NCBI RefSeq assembly: GCF_001939115.1 | Contig: NZ_MQTZ01000041.1 | Location: 124,001-188,000 of the forward strand | Length of the DNA: 64,000 bases | From: Leptolyngbya sp. 'hensonii' | Lineage (GTDB): Bacteria; Cyanobacteriota; Cyanobacteriia; GCF-001939115 | Reading direction: 5' to 3' | Part shown: piece by piece, positions 955-43,773 of the stretch | How the letters are laid out: each line of letters opens with the position of its first letter | Position numbering within the stretch: position 1 is the stretch's first letter | The notes under the pieces: generated by a model | Told to the model about the DNA's origin: nothing | What the model saw: only the letters and a program-made list of their open reading frames with translations | The model's database searches: none | Position numbers and translations under genes: made by a program

Positions 955-1701
955 CTACAGATGGGACTCTACCCAGAGGGGGACGTAGCAACAGGAGTTA
1001 TGCAGTTCCTGATCAAGCTGTCTGTAGTCCGGTTCTTTTTCCCTCACCAGCTCCCAAAACTTCTGGGAGTGATTAAGATGAACAGTGTGACAGAGTTCAT
1101 GGATAAATACATAGCGGACCAGATGAGGGGGCAAAAACATCAGCTTGTAATTCAAACTAATGGTTTTGCGCCTGGAACAACTGCCCCAACGGGTCCGCTG
1201 TCCTCGGATCGTTGCTTTTACAAATTGTAACTCCATATCCTGACTCAAGATCTCCAGCCAGGGAATTAAATTCATCCGGGCCAGATCGGCCAGCCATTGC
1301 CGCAGAGCAACCCGACAGACCTCCGCCTGATCGGTGCTGCCAGAGAGGATCAGGCTAGAGGGGGTTCCCTGACGCAAAATCACCCTGGGATCAGCAGTCT
1401 GGTCATAATGAACCTGCCAGTCCTGGGCGATCGCCCGCAGGAAAATGTTGGTGGGTAGGGGGGCCGCCAGATCAAACCCTAGGGTCGTTCGTTGTTCCTG
1501 CAAGCGCTTCTGGACCTTTTCGATCCAATGCCGCTTTTTATGCACAATTTCCGGAATGCGATCATGGCTGAATCCCGGTGGCACAATCACCTGCAGACTA
1601 CCCGAGGGCAAAATTTTTAGATGCACATTGCGGGCACGCCGGTTTTCTTGGACATCGTAACTGGGCAGGTTCAGCAGTTGGAGGTCAGGAGAGGGTTGCA
1701 T
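955..1701 (-). CDS. YgjP-like metallopeptidase (M48-type, DUF45)
   Basis: A 248-residue protein with the YgjP/DUF45 signature: RWGSCSRRKTISLNYKLMF, then the zinc-binding HELCH motif (of the HExxH kind) and a nearby HLNHSQKFW. In this family the two His of HExxH and a further His bind zinc, so a cytosolic metal-dependent peptidase is expected; the natural substrate of these proteins is not established. The first 17 bases overlap the end of the upstream Nudix gene and the stop is 2 bases before the start of the TauE-like gene, so all are likely co-transcribed. Confidence 0.85.
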   Translation of the reverse strand: MQPSPDLQLLNLPSYDVQENRRARNVHLKILPSGSLQVIVPPGFSHDRIPEIVHKKRHWIEKVQKRLQEQRTTLGFDLAAPLPTNIFLRAIAQDWQVHYDQTADPRVILRQGTPSSLILSGSTDQAEVCRVALRQWLADLARMNLIPWLEILSQDMELQFVKATIRGQRTRWGSCSRRKTISLNYKLMFLPPHLVRYVFIHELCHTVHLNHSQKFWELVREKEPDYRQLDQELHNSCCYVPLWVESHL

Positions 1702-2140
1702 CGGCTCTATTTTGCCTCTCGATGAAATCTAAAAGAATTTGATGGTGCGGCAGACCGATCGCCTTTACCTGTTGAATCTGGTGAGAATAACAGGTATTGC
1801 GATGAATCTCGGTTGGGGTAAACCAGCCCATATCACACCCCTCCCCTAAAATCAGGCTTTCCGGAGCAACACTCACTTCACCGTAATAAACATGTCGGAT
1901 CACACCCGTGCCACGGTAACAGCCAAATTTGGTCAAAATTGGGGGCACATGGCCAATCTCTTCCTGTAATTCTCGCCGGACTGCAACATCGGCAGACTCT
2001 TCAGGTTCCAGATGGCCCCCAAAAAGCCCCCACTGACCAGGGTAAACAATGCTAGGAATTTCATCTCGGAGTTGTAGCAGAAACTTTCCCTGCTGGTACA
2101 GGATCGCGATCGCCACCTCACGCATCAATGAACTACTCAT
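1685..2140 (-). CDS. Nudix hydrolase
   Basis: A 151-residue protein with a complete Nudix box from GHLEP to REL and EEIG (pattern GX5EX7REUXEEXGU). The Nudix Glu residues bind the divalent metal that allows hydrolysis of nucleoside diphosphates linked to another moiety. Length is typical of a single-domain Nudix enzyme. Its ATG overlaps the stop of the upstream lipoprotein gene by 4 bases, indicating translational coupling, and its 3' end overlaps the YgjP-like gene. The substrate cannot be deduced; house-cleaning or regulatory roles are both possible. Confidence 0.88.
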   Translation of the reverse strand: MSSSLMREVAIAILYQQGKFLLQLRDEIPSIVYPGQWGLFGGHLEPEESADVAVRRELQEEIGHVPPILTKFGCYRGTGVIRHVYYGEVSVAPESLILGEGCDMGWFTPTEIHRNTCYSHQIQQVKAIGLPHHQILLDFIERQNRADATLS

Positions 2141-2586
2141 GGACCCAGGGTTGCGGGAGGAGAACCGGTGTCTGTAAGTTGCTCCTGCTCTTCTACATAA
2201 AGCTCTGGAGCAGCTTGACCCGCGAGAGTGATCGCCTGGTTGCGCACGATCGCTTGAATCCGAACCTGGGAGCCAGATTTAGGAGCCGCAGCGCTAGTCA
2301 AAACCCAGACACTGCCGGTGCTATCCTGTAATTCGTAGACGGTGCTCCCCAGAAGGGGAACCTGCCTGCCTGCGGTGCCGGTCAGATAGACCACTGCATC
2401 AAACTGCTTCTGCTGCCGCACCTGTTCAATGGAAATCACCTTAATGGCAGGGTTGAACAGAGCCACTCTCTGGCCAGTTTGAGCCGTGGGACCAATCGGC
2501 GCAAACAGCTTCAGGCCAGCACATCCGGTCGTTGCCACCATCACTAGACCGGGGATCAATATCCAGACACAACGGAATGAAGGCAT
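2137..2586 (-). CDS. Putative lipoprotein, conserved cyanobacterial type
   Basis: A 149-residue product if started at the ATG at 2586 (MPSFRC...), which puts a hydrophobic segment immediately at the N terminus ending in TTGCAG. The Cys could be a lipidation site, although the residues before it are only a fair lipobox. The rest is a soluble beta-rich domain with a VYELQDSTGSVWVLT stretch and alternating hydrophobic residues that resembles an OB-fold (nucleic-acid or stress-type). No family name is certain. It is the first gene of the four-gene minus-strand operon and overlaps the Nudix start by 4 bases. Confidence 0.65.
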   Translation of the reverse strand: MPSFRCVWILIPGLVMVATTGCAGLKLFAPIGPTAQTGQRVALFNPAIKVISIEQVRQQKQFDAVVYLTGTAGRQVPLLGSTVYELQDSTGSVWVLTSAAAPKSGSQVRIQAIVRNQAITLAGQAAPELYVEEQEQLTDTGSPPATLGP

Positions 2587-2790
2587 AGTGGCTGAAATCG
2601 CGATCGCTGAATAGTTTAACCGTGAAGTCTTGGACTTACAAGAGATCACGGCTGAGATCCAGATGAAATGTAACGGGCCTGTCGTAACAAGCTATCAAAC
2701 CGACAGAATCAGGGGTAAGCTGGGAAGTCGGGAGAAGTGGATACTCCGAGTCTATCCCCTTCCCGACGGTTGTATTGCTGATAGTTGACC

Positions 2791-3663
2791 ATGAATGCTC
2801 AAACAGCTCAAATTCTGGACGGTAAAGCACTGGCCCAGCGCATGCAAACAGAGCTTGCCACGGAAATTCAGAGACTGCAGGCCCAGATAGGTCGGCCTCC
2901 AGGGCTGGCCGTGCTGATGGTAGGAAATGACCCCGCCAGTGCGGTTTATGTCCGCAATAAAGAGCGGGCCTGTGAAAAGGTGGGGATCGCATCCCTGGGG
3001 CAGCATTTTCCGACCGACACAACCCAGGCGGAACTGGAACAGATGATTCAGACTTTGAATCAGGATCAGCGCGTCGATGGCATTCTGATTCAACTTCCCT
3101 TGCCGGGGCATCTGGATGCCGTGGCCCTTTTAACTCAGTTGAATCCCAATAAGGACGCGGATGGGTTACATCCGCTCAATCTGGGGCGTCTGGTCCGGGG
3201 AGAAGCCGGACTCCGGAGCTGCACACCCGCTGGGGTGATGCGACTGTTGCAAGAATATGACGTTGAACTGCAGGGAAAGCATGCCGTCGTTGTAGGCCGC
3301 AGCATTCTGGTCGGAAAACCCATAGCCCTGATGTTGCTGGAAGCCAACGCCACGGTTACGATCGCCCATTCGAAAACCCCCAATTTAGCTGAAGTGACTC
3401 GCCAGGCAGATATTCTGGTAGTGGCAGCAGGTCGGCCTGAGATGATTACGGCAGACATGGTGAAACCGGGTGCTGCTGTGGTAGATGTGGGCATTAACCG
3501 AATTACAGATCCATCCGGGGGCTCTCGCCTGGTGGGGGATGTGCAGTTTGATTCAGTGCGGCGGGTGGCAGGCTTTCTCACTCCCGTACCAGGGGGGGTA
3601 GGAGCTATGACAGTTACCTTGCTGTTATACAACACGGTTTGGAGCTATTCTCAGCAACGATAG
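2791..3663 (+). CDS. folD: Bifunctional methylenetetrahydrofolate dehydrogenase/cyclohydrolase
   Basis: A 290-residue protein matching FolD over its full length: the substrate-site [14 protein letters not shown] segment with the catalytic Tyr and Lys, the QLPLPGHLD signature, the dinucleotide-binding [12 protein letters not shown] and the C-terminal [12 protein letters not shown] signature. FolD interconverts 5,10-methylene-THF and 10-formyl-THF in the cytosol, supplying formyl groups for purines (purN is also in this window, at 43.1 kb). The ATG at 2791 is preferred to an in-frame TTG two codons upstream. crtE follows after about 70 bases on the same strand. Confidence 0.96.
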
Positions 3664-3732
3664 ACCGGTAGATGTGTGTTCAGGACAGGATGCCCCGTAG
3701 AATATTTAGGAGTGGCGGAGAAGAAACCCGAT

Positions 3733-4683
3733 ATGACAAGTACAAGGGATCAAAGAACAGTACTGGCTGACACATCACCGGATGTGGACCAGGGCATTGG
3801 ATTTGACCTGGCTGCGTACCTGACTGATCGGCGGTTGCTGGTAGAGGCGGCTCTGGAAAGCTCTATTAAGGTGATCCATCCCGAAACAGTTTATGAGGCG
3901 ATGCGGTATTCCTTGCTGGCTGGGGGAAAGCGTCTGCGTCCGATTCTCTGTCTGGCTACCTGTGAATTGATGGGGGGCACGATCGACATGGCTATGCCCA
4001 CCGCCTGTGCCCTGGAAATGATTCACACCATGTCTTTGATCCATGACGATCTCCCTGCCATGGACAATGACGATTACCGGCGCGGCAAGTTGACTAACCA
4101 TAAGGTCTTTGGGGAGGATGTGGCCATTCTGGCTGGTGATGGTTTACTAGCCTATGCTTTTGAATTCGTCGTTACACAAACTCAGGGCGTCCCTGCGGAA
4201 CAGCTCCTGCAAGTGATTGCCCGCATGGGGCGAGCCGTGGGGGCGGCGGGCCTGGTGGGTGGGCAGGTGGTAGACCTGGCCTGTGAAGGCAAGACCGATG
4301 TCTCTCTGGAAATGCTCAACTTCATCCACACCCATAAAACGGCAGCCCTGCTGGAGGCTTCTGTGGTGTCGGGGGCAATCCTGGCTGGGGCATCGGAAAC
4401 TGATGTGCAGCGGCTCACCCATTATGCCGAGAACATTGGGCTGGCCTTCCAAATTGTGGATGATGTATTGGACATCACGGCAACTCAAGAGGAACTGGGT
4501 AAGACTGCTGGCAAGGATTTGCTGGCCAAAAAAGTCACCTATCCCAGTTTCTGGGGTGTGGAAGAATCCCGCCAGCGAGCCCGACAACTGACCGATGCCG
4601 CCAAAGCTGAAGTCGCTCCCTATGGGGAGAAAGGCATTCCACTGGCCGCGATCGCTGACTTTATTACAACACGCACCCACTAA
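3733..4683 (+). CDS. crtE: Geranylgeranyl diphosphate synthase
   Basis: A 316-residue trans-isoprenyl diphosphate synthase. Both aspartate-rich motifs are intact: DDLPAMDND (first, chain-length determining) and DDVLD (second), with GGKRLRP before the first motif and [16 protein letters not shown] after the second. In cyanobacteria this gene makes C20 geranylgeranyl diphosphate for carotenoids, the chlorophyll phytyl tail and quinones. The ATG at 3733 gives the normal family length; an in-frame GTG at 3676 would add 19 residues. The order folD, crtE, DUF212 membrane protein on one strand suggests a short operon, a conserved cyanobacterial arrangement as far as I recall. Confidence 0.93.
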
Positions 4684-4712
4684 TTCAAAATTTCCTGACC
4701 TGAGCACCATGT

Positions 4713-5168
4713 ATGCATGAGTTTGGCGATATTCTGAATAACCGGATTCTGCTGGTTGCCCTGGCGGCAAGTGTGATCGCCCAGACGATCAAATTTTTGC
4801 TAGATCTGGTTCGGAACGGTAAAATCAACTTTCGAATTCTGGTTGGGACAGGAGGCATGCCCAGTGCTCATTCTGCCCTGGTGACGGCCTTGGCCACCGG
4901 GGTAGGTCAGACGATCGGTTGGGACAGTGCCGAGTTTGCGATCGCGACCCTATTTGCGGTCATTGTCATGTATGATGCCGCCGGAGTACGGCAGGCAGCG
5001 GGGAAACAGGCGCGCATTCTGAATCAGATCATTGATGAGCTGTTTCAGGAGAAGCATGAGCTAAACGAAAGCCGTCTGAAGGAACTGTTGGGGCACACCC
5101 CAGTCCAGGTCATCGTTGGCTCAGCTCTCGGTGTTGCTATCTCCTGTCTTGCCGTTAAAGCTTATTAA
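4713..5168 (+). CDS. DUF212 / divergent PAP2 family membrane protein
   Basis: A 151-residue protein with about four membrane helices and the family signature GGMPSAHSALVTAL followed by MYDAAGVRQAAGKQA. This DUF212 group is annotated as a divergent PAP2 (acid phosphatase/vanadium haloperoxidase-related) family; the PSAHS block corresponds to the PAP2 active-site motif. In this position, after crtE, a role near isoprenoid diphosphate metabolism (for example dephosphorylating a polyprenyl phosphate) is conceivable, but that is inference from neighbourhood only. It starts 29 bases after the crtE stop. Confidence 0.85.
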   Translation: MHEFGDILNNRILLVALAASVIAQTIKFLLDLVRNGKINFRILVGTGGMPSAHSALVTALATGVGQTIGWDSAEFAIATLFAVIVMYDAAGVRQAAGKQARILNQIIDELFQEKHELNESRLKELLGHTPVQVIVGSALGVAISCLAVKAY

Positions 5169-39474: not shown

Positions 39475-39675
39475 TCAACCATCGGGGAATTGCCAGCACA
39501 GGAGATGTTCCACGTTTTCACTGCCGCAGGCGCAGGGTTCCGGTTTGGAAGCGACCCATTCCCAATCGCACTGCCGACAATGGCAGAGAACATTGTGGCG
39601 GTTGGCCTCCGCCAGTCGGAGCTGCCACTCCGCCAATTCTGCCTGACTTAAGGGAGTGTCACCTTCATTCGTCAT
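39475..39675 (-). CDS. Small zinc-ribbon protein
   Basis: 66 residues from the ATG at 39675 (MTNEGDTPL). Cys pattern CHCRQC and CACGSENVEHLLC suggests a zinc ribbon. Starts 11 bases inside the end of the Uma2 gene. Function unknown. Confidence 0.6.
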   Translation of the reverse strand: MTNEGDTPLSQAELAEWQLRLAEANRHNVLCHCRQCDWEWVASKPEPCACGSENVEHLLCWQFPDG

Positions 39676-40483
39676 CTGGATCAATCCCCAAAGCCCTTAA
39701 TCGTTCGGCCAGACGATCGGCCCGTTGTTGCTCCTGGTCAGCCCGTTGCCGTTCCTGGTCGGCCCGTTGTTGTTCCTGGTCGGCCCGTTGTTGTTCCAGA
39801 CTTAACCGTTCACTGTCCGTGGCGATCCAATCTCCTGCGGCATCGTACCAGCGCAGCCAGAGGCGCTCCAGTCCCTGATAGCGTCCCTGCCACAATCCCA
39901 GCCCCATATTCAAGTCCGGCAACCAGAGACGATCGTCCGGCAATTCCAGGGGCTGATAGTGAGCCTGGTTCAGACTAAACGCCCGCAGTCGATCGGTATA
40001 ACGGTCGAAGACGACGTAATAGGGAATTCGCAGAATTTGCTCATACACCTGCCATTTGGTGGGTGGATCAGGGTTAGCCCGCTCCGTTTGCCCCAGGTCT
40101 TCCCGTTCGGTTCCTGGCGACAGCAACTCTACCGCAATAAAGGGGCTGACTCCCTCCTGCCAGATCACATAACTCAAGCGTAAATCCCGGTTTTCATGCA
40201 GGCGAGGAACCCCGATCACGGCAAACCAATCCGGTCGCTTATACCAGAGTGGATGGCGGACATCGTAATACAAATTGAGATCGCTGGCGGTAAAAATCCG
40301 ATCAGCCGCATAATCTTGCAGGCGAAATGTGGCACTCAGAAGTTGGGGTTGCCAATCGTGGAACTCGTCAGGCAAGCCAGGTTCCTCCGGATTTTCGCTG
40401 GGCAAGTCATACATGGTCGGCAGAACTTCCCAGGCCGGTCGGGGGGGATCAGTTTGCTCAACCGGAAAGTGAAATGGCTGCAT
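39665..40483 (-). CDS. Uma2 family (DUF820) nuclease with C-terminal heptad-like repeat
   Basis: 272 residues. The PD-(D/E)XK-type Uma2 core shows DLNLYYDVRHPLWYKRPDWFAV, PFIAVELLSPGTEREDLG and VYEQILRIPYYVVFD. The C terminus carries a near-perfect 7-residue repeat (EQQRADQ, four copies) followed by ADRLAERLRALG, expected to form a coiled coil, encoded by a 21-bp DNA repeat near 39715-39800. Uma2 proteins are abundant in cyanobacteria and of uncertain role. Confidence 0.88.
   Translation of the reverse strand: MQPFHFPVEQTDPPRPAWEVLPTMYDLPSENPEEPGLPDEFHDWQPQLLSATFRLQDYAADRIFTASDLNLYYDVRHPLWYKRPDWFAVIGVPRLHENRDLRLSYVIWQEGVSPFIAVELLSPGTEREDLGQTERANPDPPTKWQVYEQILRIPYYVVFDRYTDRLRAFSLNQAHYQPLELPDDRLWLPDLNMGLGLWQGRYQGLERLWLRWYDAAGDWIATDSERLSLEQQRADQEQQRADQERQRADQEQQRADRLAERLRALGIDPDDE
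39716..39798. repeat. 21-bp coding repeat in the Uma2 gene
   Basis: About four units built on CCCGTTGTTGTTCCTGGTCGG (on the plus strand) encode EQQRADQ repeats on the minus strand. Units differ by single bases (GCTCC, GCCGTTCC, GTTCC), so the array has aged slightly. Copy-number changes would shorten or lengthen the coiled coil in frame. Confidence 0.8.
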
Positions 40484-40542
40484 CAGCAATACCTGTGGAG
40501 AAAACAGGGATAATCCAATACTAACGTATTAGCCATCAGACT

Positions 40543-43083
40543 TTACCAGCCCACCATAATTTTCCAGAACAGGGAGCCGATCGCCACGGTGGCCAGATGC
40601 TGGGGCAGCAGACGCAGAATTGATTGACGGGCAATATTCTGGGTCAGAATGATGCTCAGCCAGACCGAGACAATCAGGGTTACTCCCTGCAGAAATGCAA
40701 TTACCACAGGATCGGCGATCGTCACCAGATGCAGGCCGCCTGTATAGCCAAAAGTCGCCAGCGTCACCGGGATCACCCGGCCCGCCTCGGATAGCCCTAA
40801 CGGTAGATAGTGGGCCAGACTGCCCCCTAGCACCAGAGGTAGATACCCATAGGCCAGCTCTATGAAAGGACGGGGTTTGACCGTCCCGCCCCGCCCGATT
40901 CTCCCTGACAGGCCCATGATGCCATAGGCGATTCCAGCGATCGCCCCCGGCACCAACAGCGCTAGGAGCGACGATCCGGCATGACCAGCAAAGGTATCCA
41001 GGGACAACGAGAGATGAAACTGGGTGGCAATTTCGGGCAGGCGGTGAAGCAGTACCGCCCCAAACAATAGGAACAGCAGGGCTACCTCGTCCGATCGGGG
41101 AACATGGGTCGTCCACAATTCAATCCCCGGTGGCCGCAGGTTCAGTTCTACCGATCGGTGGGGACAGGCTTTGAGACAGGTCATGCACAGGACACAATCC
41201 CGATTGTCCTCCAACTGGGCGGGGTGGGAGTAGAGGGGACAGCCCTCGGTTTCCTGCCCCTCTCCCTTTTGGGGTCCCCCTTTGTAGCACTGGTAGGTGG
41301 TGCAGGTCGCCACGCAAATTCCCTGTTGTGCTCGCAATTCTGTCATGGAGAGTTTGGCGAACAGCCCATTCATGCCGCCGATTGGGCAGAGATAGCGACA
41401 CCAGAACCGTCGCTCAAACAGGAGGGAGCAGATCACTGCCCCAGCCGTAATCAGCAACAGCAAGCAAGCGGAAAGATAGGCCGTATTCTCCAGATCCCAG
41501 AGTTCTTCCCAGAGCAGGATCAGGGTAAACAGCCCAAACAAGAACCAGCCCCCGATCCGATCGGCCGCCTGGCGAGGCCAACGACCCAACTGACGGGGAT
41601 AAATCCAGAGGGACAACTTTTGTGCCAGTTCACCGTAGATCATGAACGGGCAAACCGAACACCAGAGCCGCCCAACGAAGGGAAATGCCAGCAAGATCCC
41701 TGGCCACCACCAGGCCCAGAAGAAGTTCAGAGCAATATTGCGATCGCGGGTCTGGGGTCCCAGAAATAGCAGGACGACCACGATCGCAAAGACCGCTAGG
41801 GTGAACCCGTAGTTGATCCGATCGGGCCACCAGGCGCTCCGCAGAAACTGCCGCAGCCAGGGATACACATTCAACAGGTTGACCCGGAAACGCCGCTTCC
41901 GGGGGCTGTTAGACCAGAGCACTTCCTCGGTTAACTCAGAGTCTCCCTCGAGCTGTACGATCGCCCGCTCAATCAGGCTCTGGAGCTCGGCAATATTCCC
42001 CGGAAAATCGTAGCTCTGGAGGCTGCGAATAGCCTCTGGAGTGACGCGGGGCTTGGGCAGATGGCGAGCCTGACAATAAAGACTGATGTAGTACTGCACC
42101 TGGGCTTCAATATCTGCTTTGCGGACCCGCAGCGGAGGGACCTTAACCTCATGCCCCACCAGCTTCCGTTGTGGCAGACTCTTCTCTGACACCATTAAGA
42201 TGCGGGCCTGACAGGGGAGCGATTGGGGAGGCTGCTCTCCCTCTCGACTGATAGGCGTAAATACTCCAGTTTTCAACAGGTTGCACAGTTTTTCCTCTAG
42301 AGCTGGTGACAAATCCTGAATATTGTTCAACAGCAGAGTTCCCAGGCCCAACCATTCGATTAAGCCAGGTTTGCCACCAGCCCGTCCAAACAGCTCTGCA
42401 CCGCTGGCCTGGAGGGTATTACAGTTGATTTTAATCATGGGCTGGTGCCGATCGGCTGACCCAAAATGGATCAGGGCCGCCGTATTATCCTTTTCCAGCC
42501 CTGGTTCTCCGAAAATTAGGACTGGCTTTCGATCGCGGGTCGCTTTCTTGATGTCCTGACGCAGGCGAACGGCATAACGACTGGTCCCCACGATGCCCCG
42601 CCTCACCTTATTGACCAGGTAAGGTCGCAGGGCTGCCTGCCGTTCCTGTTCGTACACCATTTGGGCGGTCACCTGATCCAGCTCAGCCGCCAGTTGGCGG
42701 GAAACAGTGCGGGTGATTTCTGGATACTGATTCACCAGAATTAGAAACGCCTCTTTCGGGATGGTCCAGAGTACCCCCTGCTCCAGGGTAATCACCGTTT
42801 GGCGGGTCACCTCCTCCAGGATCAGTTCTTTCAAATGCAAGACGGTTCCTGGCAGGAGGCCGAGAGCTGTGGCTGGCCCTGTCTTGCTGGTGCGGTAACT
42901 TTCCAGATATCCTTCCCGCAGGATGTAGAGAGCTGGGGGAAAGGTGTCTTCCAGGATCAGGCGACGATTCTCCTGGAACGGTTCCTCCACAATGGCAGCG
43001 GCGATAGCGCCCAGAACCTCATCCGATAAAGCCCCCAGGGTGGTGTGCTGTTTCAGCCATTGGATGCGATCGGTCTGGGTCAT
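40543..43083 (-). CDS. cNMP-domain/degenerate sigma-54-type AAA+/polyferredoxin fusion
   Basis: 846 residues. About 10-150: a cNMP-binding-like domain (LYILREGYLESYRTSKTG, but no clear Arg-Ala cassette). About 165-400: a sigma-54-activator-type AAA+ fold (GTSRYAVRLRQDIKKA, Walker A GEPGLEKDN with K198, ELFGR, FPGNIAELQSLIERA), but the GAFTGA loop is missing and Walker B is LLLNNIQDL (N253, N254). No helix-turn-helix follows. About 430-600: membrane helices with CSVCP and CRYLCP, then Cys clusters and a CVLCMTCLKACPH [4Fe-4S] site, of NapH/NosR type. The end (about 665-846) has further membrane helices. It looks like a sensor coupled to a membrane electron-transfer module. Confidence 0.85.
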   Translation of the reverse strand: MTQTDRIQWLKQHTTLGALSDEVLGAIAAAIVEEPFQENRRLILEDTFPPALYILREGYLESYRTSKTGPATALGLLPGTVLHLKELILEEVTRQTVITLEQGVLWTIPKEAFLILVNQYPEITRTVSRQLAAELDQVTAQMVYEQERQAALRPYLVNKVRRGIVGTSRYAVRLRQDIKKATRDRKPVLIFGEPGLEKDNTAALIHFGSADRHQPMIKINCNTLQASGAELFGRAGGKPGLIEWLGLGTLLLNNIQDLSPALEEKLCNLLKTGVFTPISREGEQPPQSLPCQARILMVSEKSLPQRKLVGHEVKVPPLRVRKADIEAQVQYYISLYCQARHLPKPRVTPEAIRSLQSYDFPGNIAELQSLIERAIVQLEGDSELTEEVLWSNSPRKRRFRVNLLNVYPWLRQFLRSAWWPDRINYGFTLAVFAIVVVLLFLGPQTRDRNIALNFFWAWWWPGILLAFPFVGRLWCSVCPFMIYGELAQKLSLWIYPRQLGRWPRQAADRIGGWFLFGLFTLILLWEELWDLENTAYLSACLLLLITAGAVICSLLFERRFWCRYLCPIGGMNGLFAKLSMTELRAQQGICVATCTTYQCYKGGPQKGEGQETEGCPLYSHPAQLEDNRDCVLCMTCLKACPHRSVELNLRPPGIELWTTHVPRSDEVALLFLLFGAVLLHRLPEIATQFHLSLSLDTFAGHAGSSLLALLVPGAIAGIAYGIMGLSGRIGRGGTVKPRPFIELAYGYLPLVLGGSLAHYLPLGLSEAGRVIPVTLATFGYTGGLHLVTIADPVVIAFLQGVTLIVSVWLSIILTQNIARQSILRLLPQHLATVAIGSLFWKIMVGW

Positions 43084-43101: not shown

Positions 43102-43773
43102 TTAGGGGTCCCCCCATGAGAATCCAGTTTGGAGGGCTGCAGCCAGGGCAATCGCACGGGGATAGATGCGATGTTCCTGCACCTGAATGCGAGACTGCAG
43201 GGTGGTAGGGTTATCCCCTGGCAAAATCGGGACTGCCGCCTGCATCAGAATGGGGCCGCTATCCATTTCCAGGGTAACAATGTGGACGGTACAACCGGCA
43301 ACTTTTACCCCAGCCTTAAGGGCTTGCTCAACCGCATGGATGCCGGGAAAACTGGGGAGCAGGCTGGGATGAATATTGAGGATGCGATCGGGAAAGGCCT
43401 CGATCAGAGCATGGGTCACTAGGCGCATCCAGCCCGCCATAATCACCCACTCCACACCAAATTGGCGTAAGGTCACTGCAATTTTCAGATCCAACTCTTC
43501 TCTGGTTGCAAAGTCTCGATGGTTCAAAAGCACGGCTGGAATGTTGAGTCGGGCTGCCCGGGCAGCGGCTTTGGCCTCTGGATTGTTGTAAATCAGAACT
43601 TGAATTTGGGCATGCAAGCGGCCATCGGCGATCGTCTGGGCGATCGTTTCAAAGTTTGAACCACTGCCTGAAGCCATCACTCCCAACTGCAGCGGTGGGC
43701 CAGATTGCAAATGGTTTCGTAAGGACTCCGGGGGAATATCGGGCGAGATGAAGCCGAAGGTGGGGTCAACCAT
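43102..43773 (-). CDS. purN: Phosphoribosylglycinamide formyltransferase
   Basis: 223 residues. The N-terminal core GVMASGSGSNFETIAQTI, then the catalytic ILNIHPSLLPSFPG (Asn-His) and TVHIVTLEMDSGPI with the catalytic Asp are intact. PurN uses 10-formyl-THF to formylate GAR in purine synthesis. A 30-residue N-terminal extension precedes the conserved core. Its first 8 bases overlap the end of the protein-kinase gene, so it is translated from the same message. Confidence 0.95.
   Translation of the reverse strand: MVDPTFGFISPDIPPESLRNHLQSGPPLQLGVMASGSGSNFETIAQTIADGRLHAQIQVLIYNNPEAKAAARAARLNIPAVLLNHRDFATREELDLKIAVTLRQFGVEWVIMAGWMRLVTHALIEAFPDRILNIHPSLLPSFPGIHAVEQALKAGVKVAGCTVHIVTLEMDSGPILMQAAVPILPGDNPTTLQSRIQVQEHRIYPRAIALAAALQTGFSWGDP

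Follow-up and report, generated by a model that had tools for sequence, protein, structure and literature searches.

A gene joining three domain types

The 64,000-nucleotide stretch of Leptolyngbya sp. 'hensonii' DNA analysed here (the window) carries at 40543..43083, on the minus strand, a gene with an ATG start that encodes a protein of 846 residues (P0001); all features given below lie on the same strand. Reading of the open frame and comparison with homologues place in order a CRP/cNMP-type domain (CNB), a coil, a pseudo-AAA+ domain, its lid and a membrane polyferredoxin. A sequence-only reading of the window had described the protein as a cNMP-like domain, a sigma-54-type AAA+ domain and a membrane polyferredoxin in one chain, and Pfam searches confirmed this architecture, with matches above the curated cut-offs to cNMP_binding (residues 35-120), Sigma54_activat (164-303), AAA_lid_14 (319-389) and, twice, Fer4_5. 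NCBIfam models for sigma-54 activators (middle part) and NapH (membrane part) were matched below their cut-offs. The formyltransferase gene purN lies 18 bp upstream (43102..43773), in a neighbourhood that is not conserved in other genomes, and the reading frame directly downstream (39665-40489) encodes a Uma2-family protein that ends in a series of QQRADQE-type heptads.

A sigma-54-type AAA+ domain with a degenerate nucleotide site

The alpha/beta subdomain of the pseudo-AAA+ domain (residues 164-310; 42154..42594) matched PF00158 with 53.7 bits (cut-off 20.2), and the lid (residues 319-389; 41917..42129) matched PF25601 with 48.6 bits (cut-off 27). Brucella NtrX structures were the top Foldseek matches of the AlphaFold2 model of this domain, and NtrC1 (3m0e) was matched with a TM of 0.82 on target and an rmsd of 2.3. 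The domain shares with the sigma-54 activators PspF, NtrC, NifA and NorR the AAA+ and lid fold, Walker A, the PPLR.R region and the GN..EL motif of the lid; it differs from them in that GAFTGA, the arginine fingers and the helix-turn-helix (HTH) are absent, Asp-Glu of Walker B is replaced by Asn-Asn, and the domain is fused to a membrane protein in a host without sigma-54.

These differences were followed through an alignment of 139 homologues, comprising 126 members of the family of the window protein (type A) and 13 others (among them A2 paralogues and marine-type sequences), with PspF, NorR, FhlA, NtrC, NifA and three further activators as the AAA+ reference set. In Walker A (GEPGLEKD, residues 192-199; 42487..42510), Lys198 is invariant in all 126 type-A and all 13 other sequences and D199 in all 126 of type A, and within the AAA+ domain the P-loop segment stands out, at 87% identity, over the remainder. 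The sequence LLLNN (residues 250-254; 42322..42336) places N253 and N254, conserved in 125/126 and 124/126 type-A sequences respectively, on the Asp-Glu positions of Walker B, where the acid pair is never intact in the 139 homologues: it is NN in type A, mostly DN in A2, and DQ, DK or DC in the marine type. Neither pattern search nor alignment to the activators found GAFTGA in any of the 139; the L1/GAFTGA loop is deleted at ELFGRAGGKPG (residues 230-240; 42364..42396), next to ELFG. The arginine-finger segment FRxDLxxRL is likewise deleted (0/139 by pattern), and sensor I is changed from ATN to an SEK-like sequence. No HTH, a part that sigma-54 activators usually but not always carry, was matched by Pfam, and the lid, which ends at about residue 392, runs to within some 30 residues of the first transmembrane helix, which starts at about residue 423. 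The sequence-only reading, which had named the missing GAFTGA, the Asn-Asn pair and the missing HTH, and which a homologue with an intact GAFTGA or Walker B pair would have contradicted, holds in all three respects, with no such homologue among the 139.

The conservation of K198 and D199 together with the two asparagines is, as judged from the alignment, the mark of selection on a defined degenerate site and not of decay. The domain would bind nucleotide because its P-loop is kept, and established AAA+ chemistry suggests that it would not hydrolyse ATP; most likely, it binds ATP or ADP without turnover, while it should be noted that conservation of the P-loop alone does not prove nucleotide binding. 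A variant of 1134 residues encoded at 1604-5005 of locus L080 (genome G024) has a tandem arrangement, CNB-AAA-AAA-membrane, in which the first AAA copy reads GEAGVGKV and LVLDHLQ.

No match to sigma-54 itself (PF04552) was found in the Leptolyngbya sp. 'hensonii' genome, and a search of 116 genomes of the class returned just two partial matches, one in a frame of 94 residues and the other in one of 58, in agreement with the earlier statement that cyanobacteria lack this factor. That the protein is a true sigma-54 activator is ruled out, because GAFTGA, the arginine-finger segment, the HTH and rpoN are all absent. An earlier survey that filtered for GAFTGA reported no sigma-54 activators in any of the 29 cyanobacteria sequenced by that time (PMC3162934); its filter would have discarded the present family, since GAFTGA is missing. 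The gene is probably mislabelled in databases as a transcription regulator, and this accounts, at least for the present family, for the labels 'sigma 54-interacting transcriptional regulator' and 'nitrogen assimilation regulatory protein' in cyanobacteria without sigma-54. Loss of L1/GAFTGA is also seen in the activators NtrC of Caulobacter and R. capsulatus, NtrX and VpsR, and R. capsulatus NtrC, which is reported to need ATP binding rather than hydrolysis (PMC10274813), sets a precedent for such a mode of action; however, those proteins retain a DNA-binding domain and work on sigma-70 promoters, whereas the window protein has no such domain and sits in the membrane.

The product name 'nitrogen assimilation regulatory protein' is also carried by an A2 member in Aulosira. 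In Synechocystis, slr1529, annotated as ntrX with this same product name, is possibly an orthologue, and is offered here as a lead only; the ffh neighbour expected for it was looked for and not found. Expression of slr1529 was lower following exposure to high copper (ratio 0.29; PMC4182526) and decreased moderately on iron deprivation (PMC3516471), and its deletion gave a metabolite phenotype (PMC5318462).

A membrane half with twelve invariant cysteines

The first transmembrane helix (residues 423-441; 41761..41817) was placed by hydropathy and corresponds to a helix at 418-441 in the model. It is followed by the motifs CSVCP (C475/C478; 41647..41661) and CRYLCP (C562/C566; 41383..41400), by a ferredoxin-like loop (41164..41316) with cysteines at 590, 594, 599, 615, 630, 633, 636 and 640, and by C-terminal transmembrane helices (residues 661-846; 40546..41103) supported by model and hydropathy. 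All 12 of these ligand-type cysteines are invariant in the 139 homologues, and the Fe-S loop, which is modelled at low confidence, has a mean identity of 92%. Hydropathy and charge predict the loop on the same side as the N-terminal domains, namely the cytoplasmic one. The two motifs named in the sequence-only reading stand, and its call for conservation of the cysteines is answered by their invariance; its single [4Fe-4S] motif needs correction, in that the eight further cysteines of the loop would be enough for two [4Fe-4S] clusters and not one.

The membrane half resembles the NapH/FtrD/MauN polyferredoxins (TIGR02163, PF12801) in its membrane helices, RxWCxxxCP-like motifs and [4Fe-4S]-type cysteines, and differs from them in that its first motif is CxxCP and not CxxxCP, that it has extra C-terminal helices, and that it carries the CNB and AAA+ domains at its N terminus. 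PF12801 was matched twice above cut-off in the membrane region, whereas TIGR02163 scored 49.4 bits against a cut-off of 213.05; the sequence profiles make this half kin to the wider Fer4_5 polyferredoxins and keep it outside NapH proper. It aligned with standalone polyferredoxins of haloarchaea and of Deinococcus ficus (32% identity, with the cysteine pattern mostly kept), and hhalign matched it, with a probability of 98.5% over 200 columns, to a 4Fe-4S protein of Rhizobium whose gene takes the place of ftrD in an FtrABCD-like iron-transport cluster. No fold in the PDB matched the model of the membrane half (best E 0.27).

An N-terminal domain that is not obligatory

The CNB domain (residues 8-125; 42709..43062) was delimited by PF00027, above cut-off, and column counts, and the AlphaFold2 model connects it to the AAA+ domain by a long helix (residues 122-155; 42619..42720) at the position of the CRP dimerisation helix. 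The CNB and the long helix after it are shared with CRP/FNR; unlike those proteins, the window protein has no conserved FGE...R phosphate cassette and no HTH. Type A has H, N or Y at position 83, then L84, and variable residues at 94-95, and A2 has FGY. A canonical cAMP or cGMP receptor is not supported, as the Glu and Arg of the cassette are not conserved. The CNB is also the least conserved domain (mean identity 49%, against 63-69% for the AAA+ domain and lid and 92% for the Fe-S loop), and it is missing from five type-A sequences and from all three marine-type sequences sampled, all of which keep the AAA+ and membrane parts. Homologues of about 700-730 residues without it were seen in several families, of the marine type and others (L075, L076, L079, L056, L059, L062). 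Because the cAMP-binding Glu and Arg are missing and the domain has been lost in several lineages, the CNB is at most an accessory input and not an obligatory one, the conserved core being the AAA+ domain with the Fe-S membrane module, and the earlier proposal that a cNMP-like domain serves as the input is weakened.

Distribution and origin

Searches of 390 sampled genomes of the class gave a match at E<=0.001 in 304, some of them merely weak CNB-type matches, and among the matches listed more than 100 ran end to end at 58-73% identity; the protein is spread across many families of the class. In a sample of 292 genomes from the phylum, 73 had a match at E<=1e-20, all in the same class, and the best 80 matches of a scan of genome contigs were all cyanobacterial. 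This uncharacterised membrane protein is present in most of the cyanobacteria sampled, and no described protein of the same architecture was found in the open-licence literature. Hundreds of genomes carry the fusion, many of them at full length, and an assembly artefact, which would have undone the sequence-only reading, is ruled out. No CNB/AAA+/membrane fusion from outside the cyanobacteria was among the matches listed from a plasmid collection, where the AAA+ and membrane halves were matched separately, and no viral homologues were found with close-relative patterns. Type A is missing from whole genera whose genomes are nearly complete (G135, G142, G177, G204, G288, G337, G018, G035 and others), and in genome G560 a C-terminal remnant is all that is left. 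Across the genomes examined, no conserved operon or neighbourhood was found for type A, and clusters were local only.

The sequence-only reading had called for a phylogeny of the AAA+ domain against sigma-54 activators, and in that tree, the bootstrap of which had not fully converged, all cyanobacterial members lay on one side of a branch, apart from the activators (100/99). The A2 sequences came together as a single group (100/100); those of the marine type, which lack the CNB, fell inside type A. A single cyanobacterial origin followed by duplication is the simplest reading of this tree.

The A2 paralogue, which the sequence-only reading had missed, is present in the same genome (contig C1, 18308-21019). 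It shares 42% identity with the window protein and has the P-loop GTGKT and LLLNN. The cysK gene was found within 200 bp downstream, on the same strand, at 14 of 28 A2 loci and at none of 109 type-A loci; within 1.5 kb, the counts were 18/28 and 0/109. Contig C4 of genome G157 and pPg_03 of Pseudanabaena galeata (L202, L250) are apparently the same plasmid (174,751 bp, with the same gene positions), and removal of the duplicate gives 13/27 and 17/27 respectively. Part of the A2 loci are flanked by extra copies of psbA and petC and by genes for DUF2892, glutaredoxin- or DsbA-like, NifX-like and nitropropane-dioxygenase-like proteins, cytochrome bd and SQR-like flavoproteins. On contig C1 of Leptolyngbya sp. 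'hensonii' (L068, 5309-10101 and 10717-11898), the A2 member is followed by an HSDR_N-like open reading frame, cysK and an SQR-like flavoprotein gene; the SQR-like protein of this genome scored below the NCBIfam cut-off. Other lineages, and plasmids too (L201, L202), show the same adjacency of A2 and cysK. The cysK linkage is new here, and no mention of CNB, sigma-54 and cysK was found in papers on sulfide in the open-licence literature. Gene context makes a good link between A2 and sulfide or low oxygen, one that cannot simply be extended to type A, and the cysK-linked paralogue offers a lead into sulfide and low-oxygen physiology.

Proposed function

We favour, with a probability of about 0.5, a membrane electron-transfer protein of the NapH/FtrD kind under the control of a pseudo-AAA+ domain that binds nucleotide but does not hydrolyse it. 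The AAA+ domain would have been taken from a sigma-54 activator; the loop that contacts sigma-54, the acidic pair of Walker B and the arginine fingers are gone from it, and the P-loop lysine and the nearly fixed asparagine pair are kept. The membrane half would exchange electrons, through its cytoplasmic Fe-S clusters and the cysteines of CxxCP and CxxxCP, with a membrane partner, perhaps the quinone pool; bound nucleotide, with oligomerisation through the coil and lid, would switch or assemble this module, and the CNB could add an optional signal other than a cNMP. The cysK-linked paralogue would probably do a similar job in sulfide or low-oxygen metabolism. Against this reading weigh the missing PDB match for the membrane model, the low confidence at which the Fe-S loop is modelled, and the finding that type A has no conserved neighbour pointing to a redox partner. 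The sequence-only reading had likewise seen an activator fold reused in a membrane electron-transfer protein, and in this it is well supported, neither kind of evidence that could have overturned it having been found; "nucleotide-binding pseudo-ATPase" is a better-supported description of the domain than its "hinge".

Other explanations start from the same parts. The Fe-S half might sense the state of quinone, oxygen, sulfide or iron, which the AAA+ and CNB domains would pass on by binding a separate transcription factor and keeping hold of it, in the way PspA does with PspF; the protein would then be a signal transducer and not an electron carrier. Both N-terminal domains are signalling-type modules and A2 is linked to stress and sulfur islands; furthermore, slr1529, the putative orthologue, was knocked out as the transcription regulator 'ntrX' with an altered metabolite profile (PMC5318462). 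However, an HTH is missing, no partner regulator is conserved next to the gene, conservation of the Fe-S part goes far beyond what a pure sensor would require, and we regard this explanation as doubtful. A CcoG-like assembly or maturation factor, reducing metal or sulfur species for a membrane redox complex or cofactor, with the AAA+ domain as a scaffold that holds the substrate, would fit the cysK linkage of A2 and the metal-handling members among Fer4_5 proteins with CxxxCP (as in the FtrD context); it is unlikely, given that no conserved client gene lies near type A and that patchy loss from complete genomes sits poorly with a core assembly role.

The loss of L1, the Walker B acids, the fingers and sensor I, and the extra and more degenerate tandem copy in the L080 lineage, could also mean that the AAA+ domain binds no nucleotide, being left over from its former role or serving simply as a structural linker. 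The invariance of K198 and D199 in type A, a P-loop more identical than the rest of the domain, and retention of the AAA+ domain in the CNB-less marine type make this quite improbable. More improbable still is a component of ferrous-iron uptake, an FtrD partner of the cyanobacterial FTR1 permease: the membrane half is homologous to the protein at the FtrD position and FTR1 is encoded in the same genome, but FTR1 is unlinked and shows no difference in co-occurrence, being present in 34/40 genomes with type A and 33/38 without.

The regulated electron-transfer protein can be taken a step further, in a speculative form that we hold only tentatively. In an ancestor of many cyanobacteria, the ATPase of an activator would have become a non-hydrolysing sensor of energy charge that gates the polyferredoxin, a nucleotide-gated electron valve of a class not described before, and the paralogue would supply or remove electrons for handling of reduced sulfur with CysK under sulfide or low oxygen. 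If the preferred reading holds, this is a clear case of a transcription motor turned into the regulator of a membrane redox protein, its catalytic site carrying the asparagine pair as a conserved replacement.

A third Fer4_5 protein of Leptolyngbya sp. 'hensonii' (L271; contig C17, 220128-220238) lies in an open frame of 950 residues. On a plasmid of Sulfurovum mangrovi (L265, 5064-9484), a distant relative of the membrane half is encoded beside another 4Fe-4S protein and genes for a 2-hydroxyacyl-CoA dehydratase and its activase, next to a TauE/SafE exporter.
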